Assembly: GCA_902593285.1 (NCBI GenBank)
Contig: CACJHW010000001.1
Location: forward strand, 142,001 to 206,000
Direction: 5' to 3'
Length of the DNA: 64,000 nucleotides
From: an uncultured Pelagibacteraceae bacterium
Lineage (GTDB): Bacteria; Pseudomonadota; Alphaproteobacteria; Pelagibacterales; Pelagibacteraceae
Made by a program: the position numbers and the translations under genes. The notes under the pieces are model-generated. The model had not been told where the DNA came from. It ran no database searches and saw only the letters and a list, made by a program, of their open reading frames with translations. Each line of letters begins with the position of its first letter. The first letter of the stretch is position 1. Shown here piece by piece: positions 30,171-38,624 of the stretch.

Positions 30171-32239
30171 TGTCAGAGTTTTTTTTAGAATTATTTAGCG
30201 AGGAAATACCCTCAAATCTTCAACAAAATTTAAGGGAAGACTTACTTAAAAGTTTTAATGATTTTTTTTTAGAAAAATCAATTTTATTTAAAAAAAGCTC
30301 ATCATACTCAACGCCAAACAGACTAGTGGTATTATTTGAAGGTGTTCAAAAAAATGTTGTACTAAAATCTGAGGAGATTAAAGGTCCAAATATCAAGTCA
30401 CCAGAGGTAGCAGTAGACGGGTTTGTTAGGTCAAATAAAATATTAAAAAAGGATCTCTACCAAAAGAAAACCGATAAAGGAGAATTTTATTTTTTCAAGA
30501 CAAAATCGAAAAAACTGCACACACATGAATTGCTAGAGGAATTTATCCCAATATTGTTAAGTAAAATTCAATGGAAAAAATCAATGTATTGGGGAACTTT
30601 TGACCTAAATTGGGGGAGACCGTTAAAATCAATTCTAGCTGTATTTGATAAAAAAAAATTAAATTTTAATTTTCATCATCTAACATCTTCTAACTCAACT
30701 TTTATTGATAAAGAATTTGAGGAAAATAAAAAGTCATTCTTAGAATTTAAAAATTATAAAAGTTTTTTTAAAAAAATTGATATTATCGTTGATCACAACG
30801 AAAGAAAAAAGTTAATAGAAAAAAAATTCAACAATATATTAAAAAATAAAAATATTAAAATTCAACATAATCCTAGATTGCTTAATGAGGTTGTAGATTT
30901 AACAGATCAACCAAATATCCTTCTTTGTGAATTTGATAAAAAATTTTTAAATATTCCAAAAGAAATATTGATTATTACCATGCAATACCATCAAAAATAT
31001 TTCCCTGTATTTGATAATAAAGAAAATATTACTAATGAGTTTTTAGTGGTCGCAAATAAAAAAGATAAAAAGGGATTAATTAAATTAGGAAATGAAAGAG
31101 TGGTCGAAGCAAGATTAAGTGACGCAGAATTTTTTTGGAAAAAAGATAAATCTCAAAATATGGTCAAAAAAGTTACTAAATTAAAATCAATGAATTATTT
31201 TAGAGGATTAGGAAGTTATTTTGATAAAGCTCAAAGAATGAGAAAATTGGGTGGAATGATATCTGATGAACTTTTAATTAGTAAAGAAAAAGTTGAATTA
31301 TCAGCATCAATTTGTAAAGTTGATTTATTATCAGAGCTAGTGGGTGAATTTCCAGAACTCCAAGGTGTAATGGGAGGTTATTTTGCTATTGCACAAGGTT
31401 TTGATAAAGATTTGGCTTTGGCCATAAGTGAGCAATATTTACCCACAGGATCAGGCTCAAGTGTCCCAAAAAAACCATTTAGCATAGCCCTTTCTTTAGC
31501 TGATAAGATAGACACTTTAGTTGGTTTTTTTGGTTTAAATCAAAAGCCAACAAGTTCTAAAGATCCATATGCTCTAAGAAGATTAGCATTAGGAGTAATA
31601 AGAATAATAGTTGAAAATAAAAAAGATTTTAAAATAAAAGATTTAATTAATTATTCTTTAAGCCTGTATTTAGATCAAGGTTTTGATATTGATAATAAAT
31701 CTTTACAAAATGAGTTATCAGATTTTTTAATGGATAGATTAAAATATCACATGAAGGAAGAAAATATTAGAAATGATATAGTTCAAGCATCAACCAGTTC
31801 TTTTAACTTAGATCAATCTGTTATTATTTTTAATAAAGCTAAACATTTAAATAAAATTATTAACAAACCAGATGGTTTAGATATTATTGCAAGCTATAAA
31901 AGAGCCTCAAACATTTTAGACGGTGAATTAAAAAATAATAAAATAGAGTTATCAAATACAACTGACCCTGGTATTTTTAAAACTGAGTTAGAAAAAAACC
32001 TATTTAAAAAAATTAGTGAATTAAGGAAATATTTTTCAGGCATTAATAATAAAGATGAAAATTATGTTCAAACGTTGGACAATTTAGCTAGTGTTAAAAG
32101 AGAGGTTTTTGACTTTTTTGATAATGTAATTGTGAACGAGGATGATCCAGTCATAAAGAAGAATAGGCTGGAACTAATCCAAATGATGTGTAAAACGTTT
32201 AACAATTATGTTAATTTTTCTCTAATTGACTCCCATTAA
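30170..32239 (+). CDS. glyS: Glycyl-tRNA synthetase beta subunit
   Basis: FFLELFSEEIPSNLQ; ATG overlaps glyQ stop region. Confidence 0.95.
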   Translation: MSEFFLELFSEEIPSNLQQNLREDLLKSFNDFFLEKSILFKKSSSYSTPNRLVVLFEGVQKNVVLKSEEIKGPNIKSPEVAVDGFVRSNKILKKDLYQKKTDKGEFYFFKTKSKKLHTHELLEEFIPILLSKIQWKKSMYWGTFDLNWGRPLKSILAVFDKKKLNFNFHHLTSSNSTFIDKEFEENKKSFLEFKNYKSFFKKIDIIVDHNERKKLIEKKFNNILKNKNIKIQHNPRLLNEVVDLTDQPNILLCEFDKKFLNIPKEILIITMQYHQKYFPVFDNKENITNEFLVVANKKDKKGLIKLGNERVVEARLSDAEFFWKKDKSQNMVKKVTKLKSMNYFRGLGSYFDKAQRMRKLGGMISDELLISKEKVELSASICKVDLLSELVGEFPELQGVMGGYFAIAQGFDKDLALAISEQYLPTGSGSSVPKKPFSIALSLADKIDTLVGFFGLNQKPTSSKDPYALRRLALGVIRIIVENKKDFKIKDLINYSLSLYLDQGFDIDNKSLQNELSDFLMDRLKYHMKEENIRNDIVQASTSSFNLDQSVIIFNKAKHLNKIINKPDGLDIIASYKRASNILDGELKNNKIELSNTTDPGIFKTELEKNLFKKISELRKYFSGINNKDENYVQTLDNLASVKREVFDFFDNVIVNEDDPVIKKNRLELIQMMCKTFNNYVNFSLIDSH

Positions 32240-34905
32240 TGAAAAAACTTATATTAAACTTTAATTCTAAGGATAGTAAAAAAATTAAAAATCCTAAAAA
32301 CTTTTTAGGAGGAAAAGGTGCTAATCTCTCTGAAATGGGAAGAATGGGTCTTCCAGTGCCTCCTGGTTTTACAATATCTACAAAAGTTTGTGAAATTTTT
32401 TATAAGGATAAAAAAAAATTAAATAAAATTTTAATTTCTCAAATTAAAAAAGAATTAAAATTAATCGAAAAAGATGTTTCTAAGAAATTTGGGGACCTAA
32501 AAAATCCACTTTTGTTGTCTGTGCGGTCTGGTGCAAGAGTATCAATGCCAGGTATGATGGATACTATTCTAAATCTAGGTCTGAACGATAAAACAGTCAA
32601 AGCTTTAGCAACTAAAACTTTAAATGGAAGATTTGCCAAAGACAGTTATAGAAGATTCATTCAAATGTACAGTAACGTTGTAATGGGTGTAGAAGGTTAT
32701 CATTTTGAGGAATTAATTGAAAATTATAAACTTACGAAAGGTGTTTTGTTAGATACAGATTTAGATGAAAGTGATTGGGATGGATTAATTGAAGATTTTA
32801 AAAGAACAGTAAGAGAAAAGGCAAAAAAAGATTTTCCCCAAGATGTTCATGAACAATTGCTGGGAGCAATTAGTGCAGTATTTTTATCTTGGGAAAGTAA
32901 TAGAGCAAAAGTTTACAGAAAACTAAATCAAATCCCAGCAGAGTGGGGAACTGCAGTAAATGTTCAATCAATGGTTTTTGGAAACATGGGTGATGATTGT
33001 GCAACAGGAGTTGTGTTTACAAGAAATCCATCAGATGGATCAAATGAAATATATGGTGAGTATTTAATTAATGCTCAAGGTGAAGATGTTGTAGCGGGCA
33101 CAAGGACTCCTCAATACATAACAAGAAAAGCTAGGAGAGACGCTAAAGTAAAAGAATTATCAATGGAAGAATCTATGCCAAAAGTTTTTAAAGAACTCCA
33201 AAAAATTTTGAAAAAATTAGAGATGCATTACAAAGATATGCAAGACGTAGAGTTTACAGTTGAAAATAGTAAACTATGGATGCTTCAAACAAGATCAGGA
33301 AAAAGAACAGCAAAATCAGCAGTCAAGATCGCAGTTGATATGGTTAAAGAAAAATTAATCTCTAAAAAGGAAGCCGTATTAAGAATTGACCCAAATTCTT
33401 TAGACACACTTTTGCACCCTACTTTGGATGAAAAAAGTTCAATTAATATAATAGCAAATGGATTGCCAGCATCACCAGGTGCAGCCAGTGGTAAAGTTGT
33501 ATTTACATCAGAAGAGGCTGAAAGATTAACCGCAATGATGCAAGATACAATTTTGGTTAGAGTAGAGACCTCCCCAGAAGATATACAAGGAATGCATGCT
33601 GCTAAAGGAATTTTGACTGCCAGAGGAGGAATGACAAGTCATGCAGCTGTTGTTGCAAGAGGTATGGGGAGACCATGTGTATCAGGATCAAGTGAAATTG
33701 ATATAAACTATGATAATAAATCTTTTAAAACTTCTTCAATTGAAATTAAAGAAGGAGACGTAATCACTATTGATGGATCAACTGGAAGAATTATTGCTGG
33801 AAGTGTTTCAACTGTGAAGCCTGAAATATCTGGTGATTTTTCCAAGTTAATGTCTTGGGCAGATAGCTTTAGAAAATTAAAAGTAAGAACAAATTCTGAA
33901 ACTCCAAAAGATACTAAAACAGCAAAAGATTTTGGTGCAGAAGGTATTGGATTATGCAGAACTGAACATATGTTTTTTGATGAAGAACGGATTTTATCTG
34001 TAAGGGAAATGATATTATCTAAAACAAAAGAAGACAGAGCAATAGCATTACAAAAACTGTTACCACATCAAAGAAAAGATTTTATAGATATTTTTAAAAT
34101 CATGAGTGAATTACCTGTTACAGTAAGATTATTAGACCCACCATTACATGAATTTCTACCACGTACAGAAAAGGAAATTAATGAGGTTGCTAGTATAGTT
34201 AATCTCCCAATTAAAGAGGTTGAGTCAAGAATTGAAGAGCTTCATGAGCAAAATCCTATGTTAGGTCATAGAGGATGTCGTCTGGGAATATCTTTTCCTG
34301 AAATTTATGAAATGCAATGCAAAGCAATATTTGAAGCTTTGGTTTACCTTAAAAAAAATAAAATTAAATCTGCATTTCCTGAAATAATGATACCTTTAGT
34401 ATCTACAGAGGCTGAGATTAAAATAATGAAAGAATTAGTAATTAGAACTGCTAGTCAAGTTCAACAAGAAAATAAATTGAAAATAGAGTTTTTAGTAGGA
34501 ACGATGATTGAATTACCTAGAGCAGCAATAAAAGCAAAGGAGATCGCTAAGCATGCAGAATTCTTTAGTTTTGGAACAAATGATTTAACTCAGACTACTT
34601 TTGGGATCAGTAGAGATGACAGTGGCAAATTTTTAAATGATTATTTAGAAAACAAAATATTTTCTGTTGATCCTTTTGTTTCAATAGATGAAGGAGTTTC
34701 AGATTTGGTTGAAATAGCAGTCGAAAAAGGACGAAAACAAAACAAAAATCTAAAGCTAGGTATCTGTGGAGAGCATGGAGGAGACCCTCATAGTATATTT
34801 TTTTGTTCTAATGCAGGATTGAATTATGTTTCTTGTTCACCTTATAGAGTTCCTGTTGCAAGGTTGGCTGCCGCTCAAGCTGAAATTAAAAAAAAATTAA
34901 ATTAA
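32239..34905 (+). CDS. ppdK: Pyruvate, phosphate dikinase
   Basis: GGKGANLSEMGRMGLPVPPGFTIST; GGMTSHAAVVARGMGRPCVSG; 888 aa. Confidence 0.97.
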   Translation: MKKLILNFNSKDSKKIKNPKNFLGGKGANLSEMGRMGLPVPPGFTISTKVCEIFYKDKKKLNKILISQIKKELKLIEKDVSKKFGDLKNPLLLSVRSGARVSMPGMMDTILNLGLNDKTVKALATKTLNGRFAKDSYRRFIQMYSNVVMGVEGYHFEELIENYKLTKGVLLDTDLDESDWDGLIEDFKRTVREKAKKDFPQDVHEQLLGAISAVFLSWESNRAKVYRKLNQIPAEWGTAVNVQSMVFGNMGDDCATGVVFTRNPSDGSNEIYGEYLINAQGEDVVAGTRTPQYITRKARRDAKVKELSMEESMPKVFKELQKILKKLEMHYKDMQDVEFTVENSKLWMLQTRSGKRTAKSAVKIAVDMVKEKLISKKEAVLRIDPNSLDTLLHPTLDEKSSINIIANGLPASPGAASGKVVFTSEEAERLTAMMQDTILVRVETSPEDIQGMHAAKGILTARGGMTSHAAVVARGMGRPCVSGSSEIDINYDNKSFKTSSIEIKEGDVITIDGSTGRIIAGSVSTVKPEISGDFSKLMSWADSFRKLKVRTNSETPKDTKTAKDFGAEGIGLCRTEHMFFDEERILSVREMILSKTKEDRAIALQKLLPHQRKDFIDIFKIMSELPVTVRLLDPPLHEFLPRTEKEINEVASIVNLPIKEVESRIEELHEQNPMLGHRGCRLGISFPEIYEMQCKAIFEALVYLKKNKIKSAFPEIMIPLVSTEAEIKIMKELVIRTASQVQQENKLKIEFLVGTMIELPRAAIKAKEIAKHAEFFSFGTNDLTQTTFGISRDDSGKFLNDYLENKIFSVDPFVSIDEGVSDLVEIAVEKGRKQNKNLKLGICGEHGGDPHSIFFCSNAGLNYVSCSPYRVPVARLAAAQAEIKKKLN

Positions 34906-34908
34906 GTA

Positions 34909-35160
34909 GGGGGCGTTCTGTTGCCAGGTGCCCCAAACCCCGTTTGCTTAATTAACTAAGTTAATTAGGCAGCAAGTGCGTAACTTTCGTTAGCAATTAT
35001 AAATTAGCCCGTTACGGTGGAACAATCCCGAACGAAAGAATAGCCTTTAGTCACCCGTCGAATCTATTTCACCCCCATAAAAAAATGGTGGAGGTGGTGG
35101 GTACTGCCCCCACGTCCGCAATGGTTATTACGAAATTCGTTTATCGTCATAGTTGGAAAA
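34909..35160 (-). ncRNA. ssrA: Circularly permuted two-piece tmRNA
   Basis: Reverse strand: acceptor piece GCGGACGTGGGGGCAGTACCCACCACCTCCACCA (3' CCA at 35086), short spacer, then coding piece GGGGGTGAAATAGATTCGACGGG from 35076; tag ORF GCT AAC GAA AGT TAC GCA CTT GCT GCC TAA at 34994-34965 = ANESYALAA*; coding end GGGGCACCTGGCAACAGAACGCCCC. Outer ends approximate. Confidence 0.92.
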
Positions 35161-35265
35161 CCAACATATATAATATAAAACATGATATATAATATTCAAT
35201 TTAATAAAATAATATTTCAAATAAAATTGATAATAAATCAACAACAATTAAATGATTAAAGATAA

Positions 35266-36300
35266 GTGAAAAAAAATAAAAAAATTTTAGTTGGAATAAT
35301 AGGTAGAAACTTTGGATATAATGTTATTTATAGAGCTCTTCTTAGGAGCAACTTATTCAAAGTAATTTCATTTTGTTTTAAAAATAAAAAAAATATTCCA
35401 AATTTACCAAAGAATATTAAAATATACACTGACTGGAAAAAAATAGTTAAGGATAAAAAGGTTAATGCATTGATTGTCTCTACACCTCCTATTACACATA
35501 AAAAGATTCTTTCTTATGCGGTAAAAAATAATAAACATATTTTTTGTGAGAAACCATGCACTAAGTCTAGTAAGGATTTAAAAGAAGTTATTTATCTAAT
35601 AAATAAAAAACCCTTCTTATCTCATATGGTTAATTATACACTGGCATATTTACCAGCATTTCAACTTTTAAAAAAAAAGATATTTCATCCCAAAACCATA
35701 ATTAAAGAAGCTTATTTAGAGTGGGTAATTTTTAATAGATCTATGGATAAAAGTTGGAAGAATTATCATACGAAAGGAGGAGGCATATTATTTAACTATT
35801 ATTGTCATACTTTATATTATTTGGAATTAATATTTGGAAATATACATTCTACAAAAGTTGATATTAAAAATCATATTAAAAATGAAAATAATTATATATT
35901 AGGGGATATCATCTTTAAGTCTAAAATAAAAATTAAGATTAAAATATTAGTAGGAAATTTAAAAAAGCATAAAAAATCAATTCACCAGCTAAGAGTCAAA
36001 ACAAGCGATAATGATTGCCTAATTCTTAGTAGCAGCACAAAAAAATTATCAGATCAATTCCAATTATATAAGTTAAAGAATATTAAAAGTATAAATTCAA
36101 AAAAAATTCTTTTTTTGGGAAATTTATCAAAAACAGATTTTAGAATAAGTCCAACTTTGGCTAATTTGAAAAGGTTTGCGAAGTCTATTAATCTAAAAAA
36201 GATTGATAGAAGTAGTTTTTTTATTGCAAATCGAATACACTACATCATAAATAAATCATTAATTTCTTCCAAAATGAATAAAAGAGTTATAATCAATTAA
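35266..36300 (+). CDS. Gfo/Idh/MocA family oxidoreductase
   Basis: VGIIGRNFGYNV Rossmann start; ALIVSTPPITHKKIL; HIFCEKPCTKSSKDL; GTG start. Confidence 0.85.
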   Translation: MKKNKKILVGIIGRNFGYNVIYRALLRSNLFKVISFCFKNKKNIPNLPKNIKIYTDWKKIVKDKKVNALIVSTPPITHKKILSYAVKNNKHIFCEKPCTKSSKDLKEVIYLINKKPFLSHMVNYTLAYLPAFQLLKKKIFHPKTIIKEAYLEWVIFNRSMDKSWKNYHTKGGGILFNYYCHTLYYLELIFGNIHSTKVDIKNHIKNENNYILGDIIFKSKIKIKIKILVGNLKKHKKSIHQLRVKTSDNDCLILSSSTKKLSDQFQLYKLKNIKSINSKKILFLGNLSKTDFRISPTLANLKRFAKSINLKKIDRSSFFIANRIHYIINKSLISSKMNKRVIIN

Positions 36301-36309
36301 TATTTAAAA

Positions 36310-37368
36310 ATGACAAAAAAAAGGGCTTTAATAATAGGAATAACTGGTCAAGATGGAAGTTATCTTGCAGAATTCTTAATTAAAAAAAATTATATTGTTC
36401 ATGGAATGGTTAGAAGATCTTCTATGCCAAATACTCAGAGAATTGATCATATTTTATCAACATCAAGAGATGAAGAGTCTTCAAATAAAAAAATTATACG
36501 AGAATATGGCGATCTTAGTAGTTCAGAAAATATTCAAAATATAATTAGACGAATTAAACCTGATGAAATTTATAATTTAGGTGCACAGAGCCATGTGAAA
36601 GTAAGTTTTGAAATACCAGAATATACATACGATATTGTTGCAGTTGGTCCATTAAGAGTTTTAGAGGCGATTAAAAATATAAAACCAAATATTAAATATT
36701 TACAAGCTTCTTCATCAGAAATGTTTGGTAATAGTGAAAATAATATTCAAAATGAAAATACTCAATTTAATCCAGAGTCTCCTTATGCCTCAGCAAAAAC
36801 CTTAGGATATTGGACAACAAGGAATTATAGGGATAATTTTAAAATATTTGCATCCAATGTCATTATGTTCAACCATGAGTCACCAAGGAGAGGGCTAAAT
36901 TTTGTCACAAAAAAAATTGTAAGAGGGTTAATAGAAGTTAAGAATAAGAAAAGAAAATATTTATATTTAGGAAATCTTAATGCTAAAAGAGATTGGGGAT
37001 ATGCAAAGGAATATTGTGAAGTTATGTGGAAAATGCTTCAATTAAAAAAAGCTGATGATTTTGTTATTGCGACAAATACTCATTACAGTGTAAGAGATTT
37101 TGTGGAAGCTGCAGGTAAAGAACTTAACTTTGAAATAATCTGGAAAGGTAAAGGAACTAAAGAGGTAGGTATTGATAAAAAAACAAATAAGACTGTTATA
37201 AAAATAGACCCGTATTATTTTAGACCAAATGACGTACAGAGCCTTTTAGGAGATGCTAGTAAATTATATAAAGCCATCAAGTGGAAGCCAAAAACGAGTT
37301 TTAAAAAGCTTGTGAAGATTATGGTTGATAAAGAGATTGAGCTAATAAAAAACAATAAAATTTACTAA
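36310..37368 (+). CDS. gmd: GDP-mannose 4,6-dehydratase
   Basis: ALIIGITGQDGSYLAEFLIKKNYIVHGMVRRSS; YNLGAQSHVKVSFE; FNHESPRRGLNFVTKKI; DVQSLLGDASK. Confidence 0.95.
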   Translation: MTKKRALIIGITGQDGSYLAEFLIKKNYIVHGMVRRSSMPNTQRIDHILSTSRDEESSNKKIIREYGDLSSSENIQNIIRRIKPDEIYNLGAQSHVKVSFEIPEYTYDIVAVGPLRVLEAIKNIKPNIKYLQASSSEMFGNSENNIQNENTQFNPESPYASAKTLGYWTTRNYRDNFKIFASNVIMFNHESPRRGLNFVTKKIVRGLIEVKNKKRKYLYLGNLNAKRDWGYAKEYCEVMWKMLQLKKADDFVIATNTHYSVRDFVEAAGKELNFEIIWKGKGTKEVGIDKKTNKTVIKIDPYYFRPNDVQSLLGDASKLYKAIKWKPKTSFKKLVKIMVDKEIELIKNNKIY

Positions 37369-37370
37369 AA

Positions 37371-38624
37371 TCAATTTATTATCTTTGGAATAGGAAGAGG
37401 TAATATGAATTTTCCTTTAAAGCCTTTATCTCGTAAATTTTTCATTACATTTTTTCCGTAGTGCCAAGATAAAATTAAAGCATAATCTGGTTGTTTTTTA
37501 AAAAAATACTTTTCATCTAAAACTTGAATATGAGTATTAGGTGTATATAAATTTAGCTTCAAAGAGGTGCTTTGCTCAGCAATATAATCTAAAATTCTAT
37601 TATTAATATTGCAGTACGCTAATAAAGTTATACATCTGCCTGGACAACCTATCCCAACAATTCGTTTGTTCTTTTCTTTAATATTTAGAAGTAAATCTGA
37701 GAGTTTTTTTTTATTTTTTTTTATATCATTCGAAAACTTGGTATATTTTTTTGATGTGTAAAAACCTTTGGATCTCTCATAATTTAATATTTTTTTTACA
37801 TTATTAGAAGGTTTAATCTCTTGATTGAGTGATGCTATTACACGTATTGAACCACCATAATTTGGAATTTTTATGGCATCAATTATTTTAAAGCCATACA
37901 TTCTCATTAAGACATCTAAAGGTTTTAGTAAATAAAATCTTAGATGTTCATGATAAATTGAGTCATATTGAAGTTGCTCTATAATATTCACTGCATAATG
38001 TGACTCTGTAACAAAAAGTCCTTTTTTTTTATCCAGCAATAACTTAACTCCCTCCATAAATGAATTTAGTTTATTTATATGAGCAAATATATTTGTGCCA
38101 GTAATAACCTCTGCTTTTTGAAACTTTTCTGATATTTTTTTAGCTGATTGAATGTCAAAAAAACTTTGCAAGGTTTTTATTCCATTTTTATTAGCTAACT
38201 TTGCAATATTTGTTGGCTCTACACCTAAAACTTCAAATTTTTGTTTTTTAAATCCTCTAAGCAGAGTTCCATCATTAGATCCAATGTCAATAGCTAAAGG
38301 GTTTTTAGAAAATTCAAAATTATCTCTTAGATATTTACTTGTACTGTGTAGTAAATTGGTTAGTGGTTTTGTTATCCCACTCTTATATGGATATTTTAAA
38401 TGAAATACCTCTTTGTTGTTGACTGTATAATCTAGTTGGATTAATTGGCAATTTGTACATCTAACCAAATTAAGTGGATAGCTTTTTTCTTTTTTTAATT
38501 GTTTTTTTGTGAGAAGAGAGTCACATAACCCTGTTGATCCCATTTTAATAATTTTTTGTAGTTTTTTAGAATTACATACTTGACAATAATTTAATTTTCC
38601 AAATTTAGAGTCTTTAGCTTTCAT
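37371..38624 (-). CDS. Three-module SAM-dependent sugar C-methyltransferase-like protein
   Basis: Zn-binding N-terminus CQVCNSKKL...RCTNCQL; AIDIGSNDGTLL SAM site; NIFAHINKL; C-terminal GIGCPGRCITLLAYCNI domain. Confidence 0.85.
   Translation of the reverse strand: MKAKDSKFGKLNYCQVCNSKKLQKIIKMGSTGLCDSLLTKKQLKKEKSYPLNLVRCTNCQLIQLDYTVNNKEVFHLKYPYKSGITKPLTNLLHSTSKYLRDNFEFSKNPLAIDIGSNDGTLLRGFKKQKFEVLGVEPTNIAKLANKNGIKTLQSFFDIQSAKKISEKFQKAEVITGTNIFAHINKLNSFMEGVKLLLDKKKGLFVTESHYAVNIIEQLQYDSIYHEHLRFYLLKPLDVLMRMYGFKIIDAIKIPNYGGSIRVIASLNQEIKPSNNVKKILNYERSKGFYTSKKYTKFSNDIKKNKKKLSDLLLNIKEKNKRIVGIGCPGRCITLLAYCNINNRILDYIAEQSTSLKLNLYTPNTHIQVLDEKYFFKKQPDYALILSWHYGKNVMKNLRDKGFKGKFILPLPIPKIIN

Follow-up and report, generated by a model that had tools for sequence, protein, structure and literature searches.

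A circularly permuted two-piece tmRNA gene in a SAR11 genome, its nine-codon tag, and a search for the tag adaptor SspB

Results

The ssrA gene of the window

The window, a 64,000-nucleotide stretch of an uncultured Pelagibacteraceae genome, carries on its minus strand a circularly permuted tmRNA gene that is almost certainly the housekeeping ssrA of this SAR11 (Pelagibacterales) bacterium, specifying a two-piece tmRNA. Its permuted form is ordinary for the group, not new, since a split, permuted tmRNA in a 217 bp intergenic region was described in Candidatus Pelagibacter ubique HTCC1062 in 2009 (PMC2704228), matches occur throughout SAR11 (see below), and the current database holds 11,946 permuted tmRNAs (PMC11915505). 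The absence of the adaptor SspB across SAR11 is apparently a previously unreported pattern; a literature search by title and abstract, with subscription papers mostly outside its reach, found no published report of it.

The Rfam model RF01849 (alpha_tmRNA) matched over its full length at 35203-34905 on the minus strand with 229.4 bits (E=3.3e-65), clearing the gathering score of 50 bits. The newer Rfam model RF04321 (tmRNA_permuted) matched the same gene at 131.2 bits (E=2e-25), and ARAGORN, which is independent of Rfam, called a permuted tmRNA with the tag ANESYALAA. The full-length permuted match rules out a standard, non-permuted tmRNA. These results bear out a preliminary description made from the letters of the window, which had proposed a circularly permuted alphaproteobacterial tmRNA, with its acceptor half about 9 nt upstream of its 5' half and a clean nine-codon tag frame, and had named the alpha_tmRNA covariance model as the check. 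The parts of the gene are as follows.

34905..35203, minus strand: ssrA, circularly permuted tmRNA (RF01849 and RF04321 matches, ARAGORN tmRNA*)
35086..35165, 5' end approximate, minus strand: acceptor piece, with a GTTGG/CCAAC hairpin, the 5' strands of the inter-piece helices, the T-arm, CACCTCC, discriminator A and encoded CCA (sequence, Rfam alignment, pair counts in 40 SAR11 sequences)
35096-35090, minus strand: acceptor 3' strand CACCTCC (sequence)
35089, minus strand: discriminator A, then CCA at 35088-35086 (sequence)
35085-35077, minus strand: 9-nt intervening spacer TTTTTTTAT (sequence; equivalent position in 90 SAR11 genes)
34908..35076, 3' end approximate, minus strand: coding piece, starting GGGGGTG (sequence, Rfam alignment)
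from 35076, minus strand: start of the coding (5') half, GGGGGTGAAATAGATTCGACGGG (sequence)
34994-34968, minus strand: tag frame GCT AAC GAA AGT TAC GCA CTT GCT GCC (sequence, ARAGORN)
34967-34965, minus strand: tag stop TAA (sequence)
34908..34942, minus strand: conserved 3' structured element of the coding piece, around GGGGTTTGGGGCACCTGGCAACAGAACGCCCCC (Rfam model end, SAR11 alignment)

Both the sequence and the ARAGORN call place the acceptor half before the coding half. The acceptor stem GGGGGTG/CACCTCC, followed by A-CCA, is tRNA-Ala-like with a G3:U70 pair, the alanine identity pair. The ARAGORN tag ends in a ClpX-type AA tail directly before the stop. In piece order, acceptor stem, inter-piece helices, 3' element and tag frame the gene is like RF01849 and the two-piece ssrA of Caulobacter; it differs from the permuted tmRNAs of other alphaproteobacteria in its nine-codon tag, its lack of an ANDN start and its 9-nt spacer (median 31 nt in the others). 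The HTCC1062 tmRNA, from a member of the same taxonomic order, is likewise split and permuted; its neighbour is thyX (PMC2704228), as against a ppdK-like gene in the window.

Pairing between the two pieces

We aligned 40 distinct SAR11 genes, projected the Rfam pairing onto the alignment and counted pairs. Standard pairs filled 92.4% of cells, a percentage slightly biased toward the model because the pairing is the Rfam model fitted to the window sequence; the compensatory changes carry no such bias. Twelve pairs covaried, with both sides changed, and none of 500 shuffles equalled the observed covariation score. Sliding the partners by 1-3 columns dropped pairing to 41-50%. Nine of the twelve covarying pairs sit in the three helices predicted to join the pieces (helices 2-4), all of which covary and have 76-99.5% of cells paired. 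The acceptor helix is 100% paired and invariant, G3:U70 appearing in 40/40 sequences (as UG, columns 96-122), and CCA is likewise invariant in 40/40. Three column pairs are unpaired in most SAR11 sequences: 54-156 and 55-154 in the long inter-piece helix, and 69-141 beside the tRNA domain. The covariation between pieces supports the two-piece form given in the preliminary description, with the cut sites placed by prediction.

Going by the family, cleavage, alanine charging and tagging would proceed as follows. A single precursor transcript would carry the acceptor half, the 9-nt linker and then the tag-coding half. The linker would be excised by tRNA-processing nucleases, RNase P generating the 5' end at GGGGGTG and a 3'-processing step freeing the encoded CCA, and the two RNAs would stay joined through the acceptor stem and the inter-piece helices. 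AlaRS would charge the acceptor piece via G3:U70, SmpB would bring the charged tmRNA to ribosomes that have stalled, and A-ANESYALAA would be added to the growing chain, which would then be degraded. Alternatively, the precursor might stay uncut and work as one molecule that retains the 9-nt loop, as could be imagined from the very short linker and from a predicted stem that closes a small loop in the uncut strand. Such a molecule would lack a free 3' CCA for alanine, yet CCA and G3:U70 are invariant in all 40 sequences, and two-piece processing is established in Caulobacter (Keiler 2000, as cited in PMC11915505); we regard an uncut tmRNA as very improbable and a two-piece product as the expected one.

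Tag and spacer in SAR11 and other alphaproteobacteria

An alpha_tmRNA match was found in 269 of 297 genomes of the host order. Five SAR11 genomes lacking one were checked for a standard tmRNA, with none over the cut-off (0/5), and we read these five as assembly gaps. We fetched 91 SAR11 loci, of which ARAGORN called 90. All 90 tags have nine codons and fit the pattern AN....A[LI]AA; the commonest is ANESYALAA (37), followed by ANDELALAA (20) and ANDKFALAA (13), with others fewer, and none starts with ANDN. The spacer is 4-17 nt in these 90 genes, with a median of 12. Exact copies of the tag DNA were located in at least 119 contigs, whose titles, among the matches listed, were all Pelagibacteraceae, Pelagibacterales or Pelagibacter; ARAGORN called ANESYALAA in 115 of these 119. 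Together with the matches across the order, the titles uphold the SAR11 affiliation of the gene, which the preliminary description had supposed correctly.

Outside SAR11, among 130 class-wide loci, the 111 called by ARAGORN have tags of at least 10 codons. A fallback search gave one nine-codon tag, ANDNVALAA, in an SspB-positive genome (G406). The median spacer of the class-wide loci is 31 nt, several being only 5-10 nt. The comparison of tag and spacer across SAR11 genomes that the preliminary description proposed thus gave nine codons and 4-17 nt throughout. Its remark that the tag is short stands against other alphaproteobacteria but not within SAR11, and its impression that the spacer is unusual does not hold for SAR11. 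Judged from these genes, the nine-codon tag and the short spacer are SAR11-wide traits.

Several alphaproteobacterial tags are exceptionally long, at 20-35 codons, and many of them contain repeats of an NxN motif (L131 in genome G410, L147, L153, L203, L214, L225 and others). They are predictions by ARAGORN or the fallback search, and some may be false frames.

Partner proteins and the adaptor

SspB is a tag-binding adaptor that carries tagged proteins to the protease in other bacteria. We searched for it by profile in SAR11 genomes of at least 90% completeness plus the host (79% complete), and found it over the cut-off in none of the 155, host included. The same profile found SspB in 135 of 142 other alphaproteobacteria, drawn from a class-wide sample of 144 genomes after excluding two SAR11 genomes (the host and one other); reduced genomes of 0.7-1.0 Mb are among those in which it was found. 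Both ssrA and sspB are present in 132 alphaproteobacterial genomes, and in 94 of these sspB follows ssrA on the same strand at a distance of at most 1 kb, with a median gap of 110 bases. ClpA was over the cut-off in none of 21 genomes of the SAR11 order (0/21). SmpB was present in all 21, including the host (G000:C7:24040-24465, 195 bits), and ClpX was over the cut-off in 15 of the 21, among them the host and all 11 with completeness of at least 90%. At the level of sequence, the anatomy of the gene, its conserved pairing and the presence of SmpB and ClpX as partners in the genome are all demonstrated.

Because neither SspB nor ClpA was found in SAR11, tagged proteins perhaps go straight to ClpXP there, with no adaptor. 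In the E. coli tag, AANDENY binds SspB and ALAA binds ClpX, and E. coli ClpXP degrades the SENYALAA degron, which does not bind SspB, without SspB; the ...ESYALAA ending of SAR11 resembles this SspB-independent degron (PMC8512704). On the fuller reading, SAR11 dropped the adaptor layer: SspB and ClpA would be gone, the ssrA-sspB pair broken, the minimal nine-codon tag read by ClpXP, and selection for ANDN relaxed by the loss of SspB. We hold this tentatively, as a serious possibility. Alternatively, a housekeeping tmRNA might rely on another adaptor to deliver its tag, one diverged from SspB or unrelated to it and therefore invisible to the SspB profile. Sub-threshold SspB matches (12.9 bits) do occur in two SAR11 genomes, and an AAND start is kept in some SAR11 tags once the charged alanine is counted; the two matches, however, span just 28-35 positions, one with an internal stop, and the profile's success in 135 of 142 other alphaproteobacteria, genomes of 0.7-1.0 Mb included, makes such a hidden adaptor unlikely. 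On these results, one of the most numerous groups of marine bacteria seems to rescue its ribosomes without SspB and ClpA and with a uniformly shortened tag, and SAR11 provides a natural experiment on whether the ssrA tag owes its length and sequence to SspB.

Tag sequence may also go with SspB across the class. An ANDN start was present in 108 of 123 SspB-positive genomes with a readable tag. Outside SAR11, three permuted genomes without SspB gave a readable tag: ANDNELALAA, AKSDYAEYALAA and ANQNNAFVVACNDNAPIAIAA. Fisher's exact test of ANDN against SspB, which ignores phylogeny, gave p=0.048 without SAR11 and p=0.009 with SAR11 counted as one lineage. Because these tests ignore phylogeny and independent losses are few, we offer a link between loss of SspB and loss of ANDN as a suggestion; genomes G321, lacking SspB with ANDN retained, and G406, with SspB and a nine-codon tag, are counter-cases. 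A short tag likewise fails as strict proof of SspB loss, given SspB-positive G406 with its nine-codon tag and SspB-negative G321 with ANDN.

Two genomes placed in the class lack SspB and have the tags ADDNFEYAMAA (G364:C7:644426-644829, L231) and AEDNFEYKLAA (G343:C29:4348-4524). The G364 tmRNA is a standard one-piece form (152.9 bits); either this lineage retains an unpermuted tmRNA or the genome is misplaced.

Flanks of the gene and phage-borne copies

Next to the 3' end of ssrA lie two features.

32239..34905, plus strand: convergent gene, presumably pyruvate phosphate dikinase-like (ppdK-like), its stop abutting the tmRNA 3' end (ORF)
34888..34896, minus strand: 9-T run just beyond the 3' hairpin, within the 3' end of the ppdK-like gene (sequence)

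On the other side of ssrA, from 35266-38624 and beyond, are what we take, from sequence recognition only, to be surface-polysaccharide genes (an oxidoreductase, a GDP-mannose dehydratase-like and a methyltransferase-like gene); the name of the ppdK-like ORF is assumed on the same basis. Adjacency of ppdK and ssrA is not a SAR11 rule, being seen in only part of the SAR11 loci.

The start of a polysaccharide-type cluster at this point could be taken to mean that the window ssrA is a decayed or horizontally acquired copy, a phage or island remnant, instead of the housekeeping gene, and phage-like contigs can hold a permuted tmRNA with ANESYALAA. Two-piece tmRNAs, permuted like the window gene, are encoded by Melnitz and Pelagibacter phage Mosig (PMC9004378). 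At blastn sensitivity, GenBank phages gave no match to the window tmRNA. Five IMG/VR contigs (L362-L366) carry a diverged permuted tmRNA whose tag is identical to that of the window gene, with a longer linker and a different coding piece and 3' part. Against acquisition, the host genome, assembled in 37 contigs (1.04 Mb, 79% complete), has no alpha_tmRNA match other than the window ssrA, which is full length and well paired and aligns with SAR11 chromosomal genes, while the phage copies differ in linker, coding piece and downstream sequence. An acquired or decayed copy is therefore scarcely credible. An island integrated at ssrA was also considered and rejected, since the window contains no repeat of the tmRNA 3' end that would mark one.

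L366, with its tmRNA at L366:1484-1804, also encodes a helicase loader, single-strand DNA-binding protein, DNA end protector, tail tube and baseplate hub; from this gene set it looks like a T4-like phage with the SAR11 tag.

A simple terminator scan scored none, the 9-T run after the last hairpin included; the run is a possible terminator tail. The poly-T past the tmRNA (34888-34905) is the reverse complement of the terminal lysine codons of the ppdK-like gene, and the two genes may share these positions, as coding end of one and terminator tail of the other.
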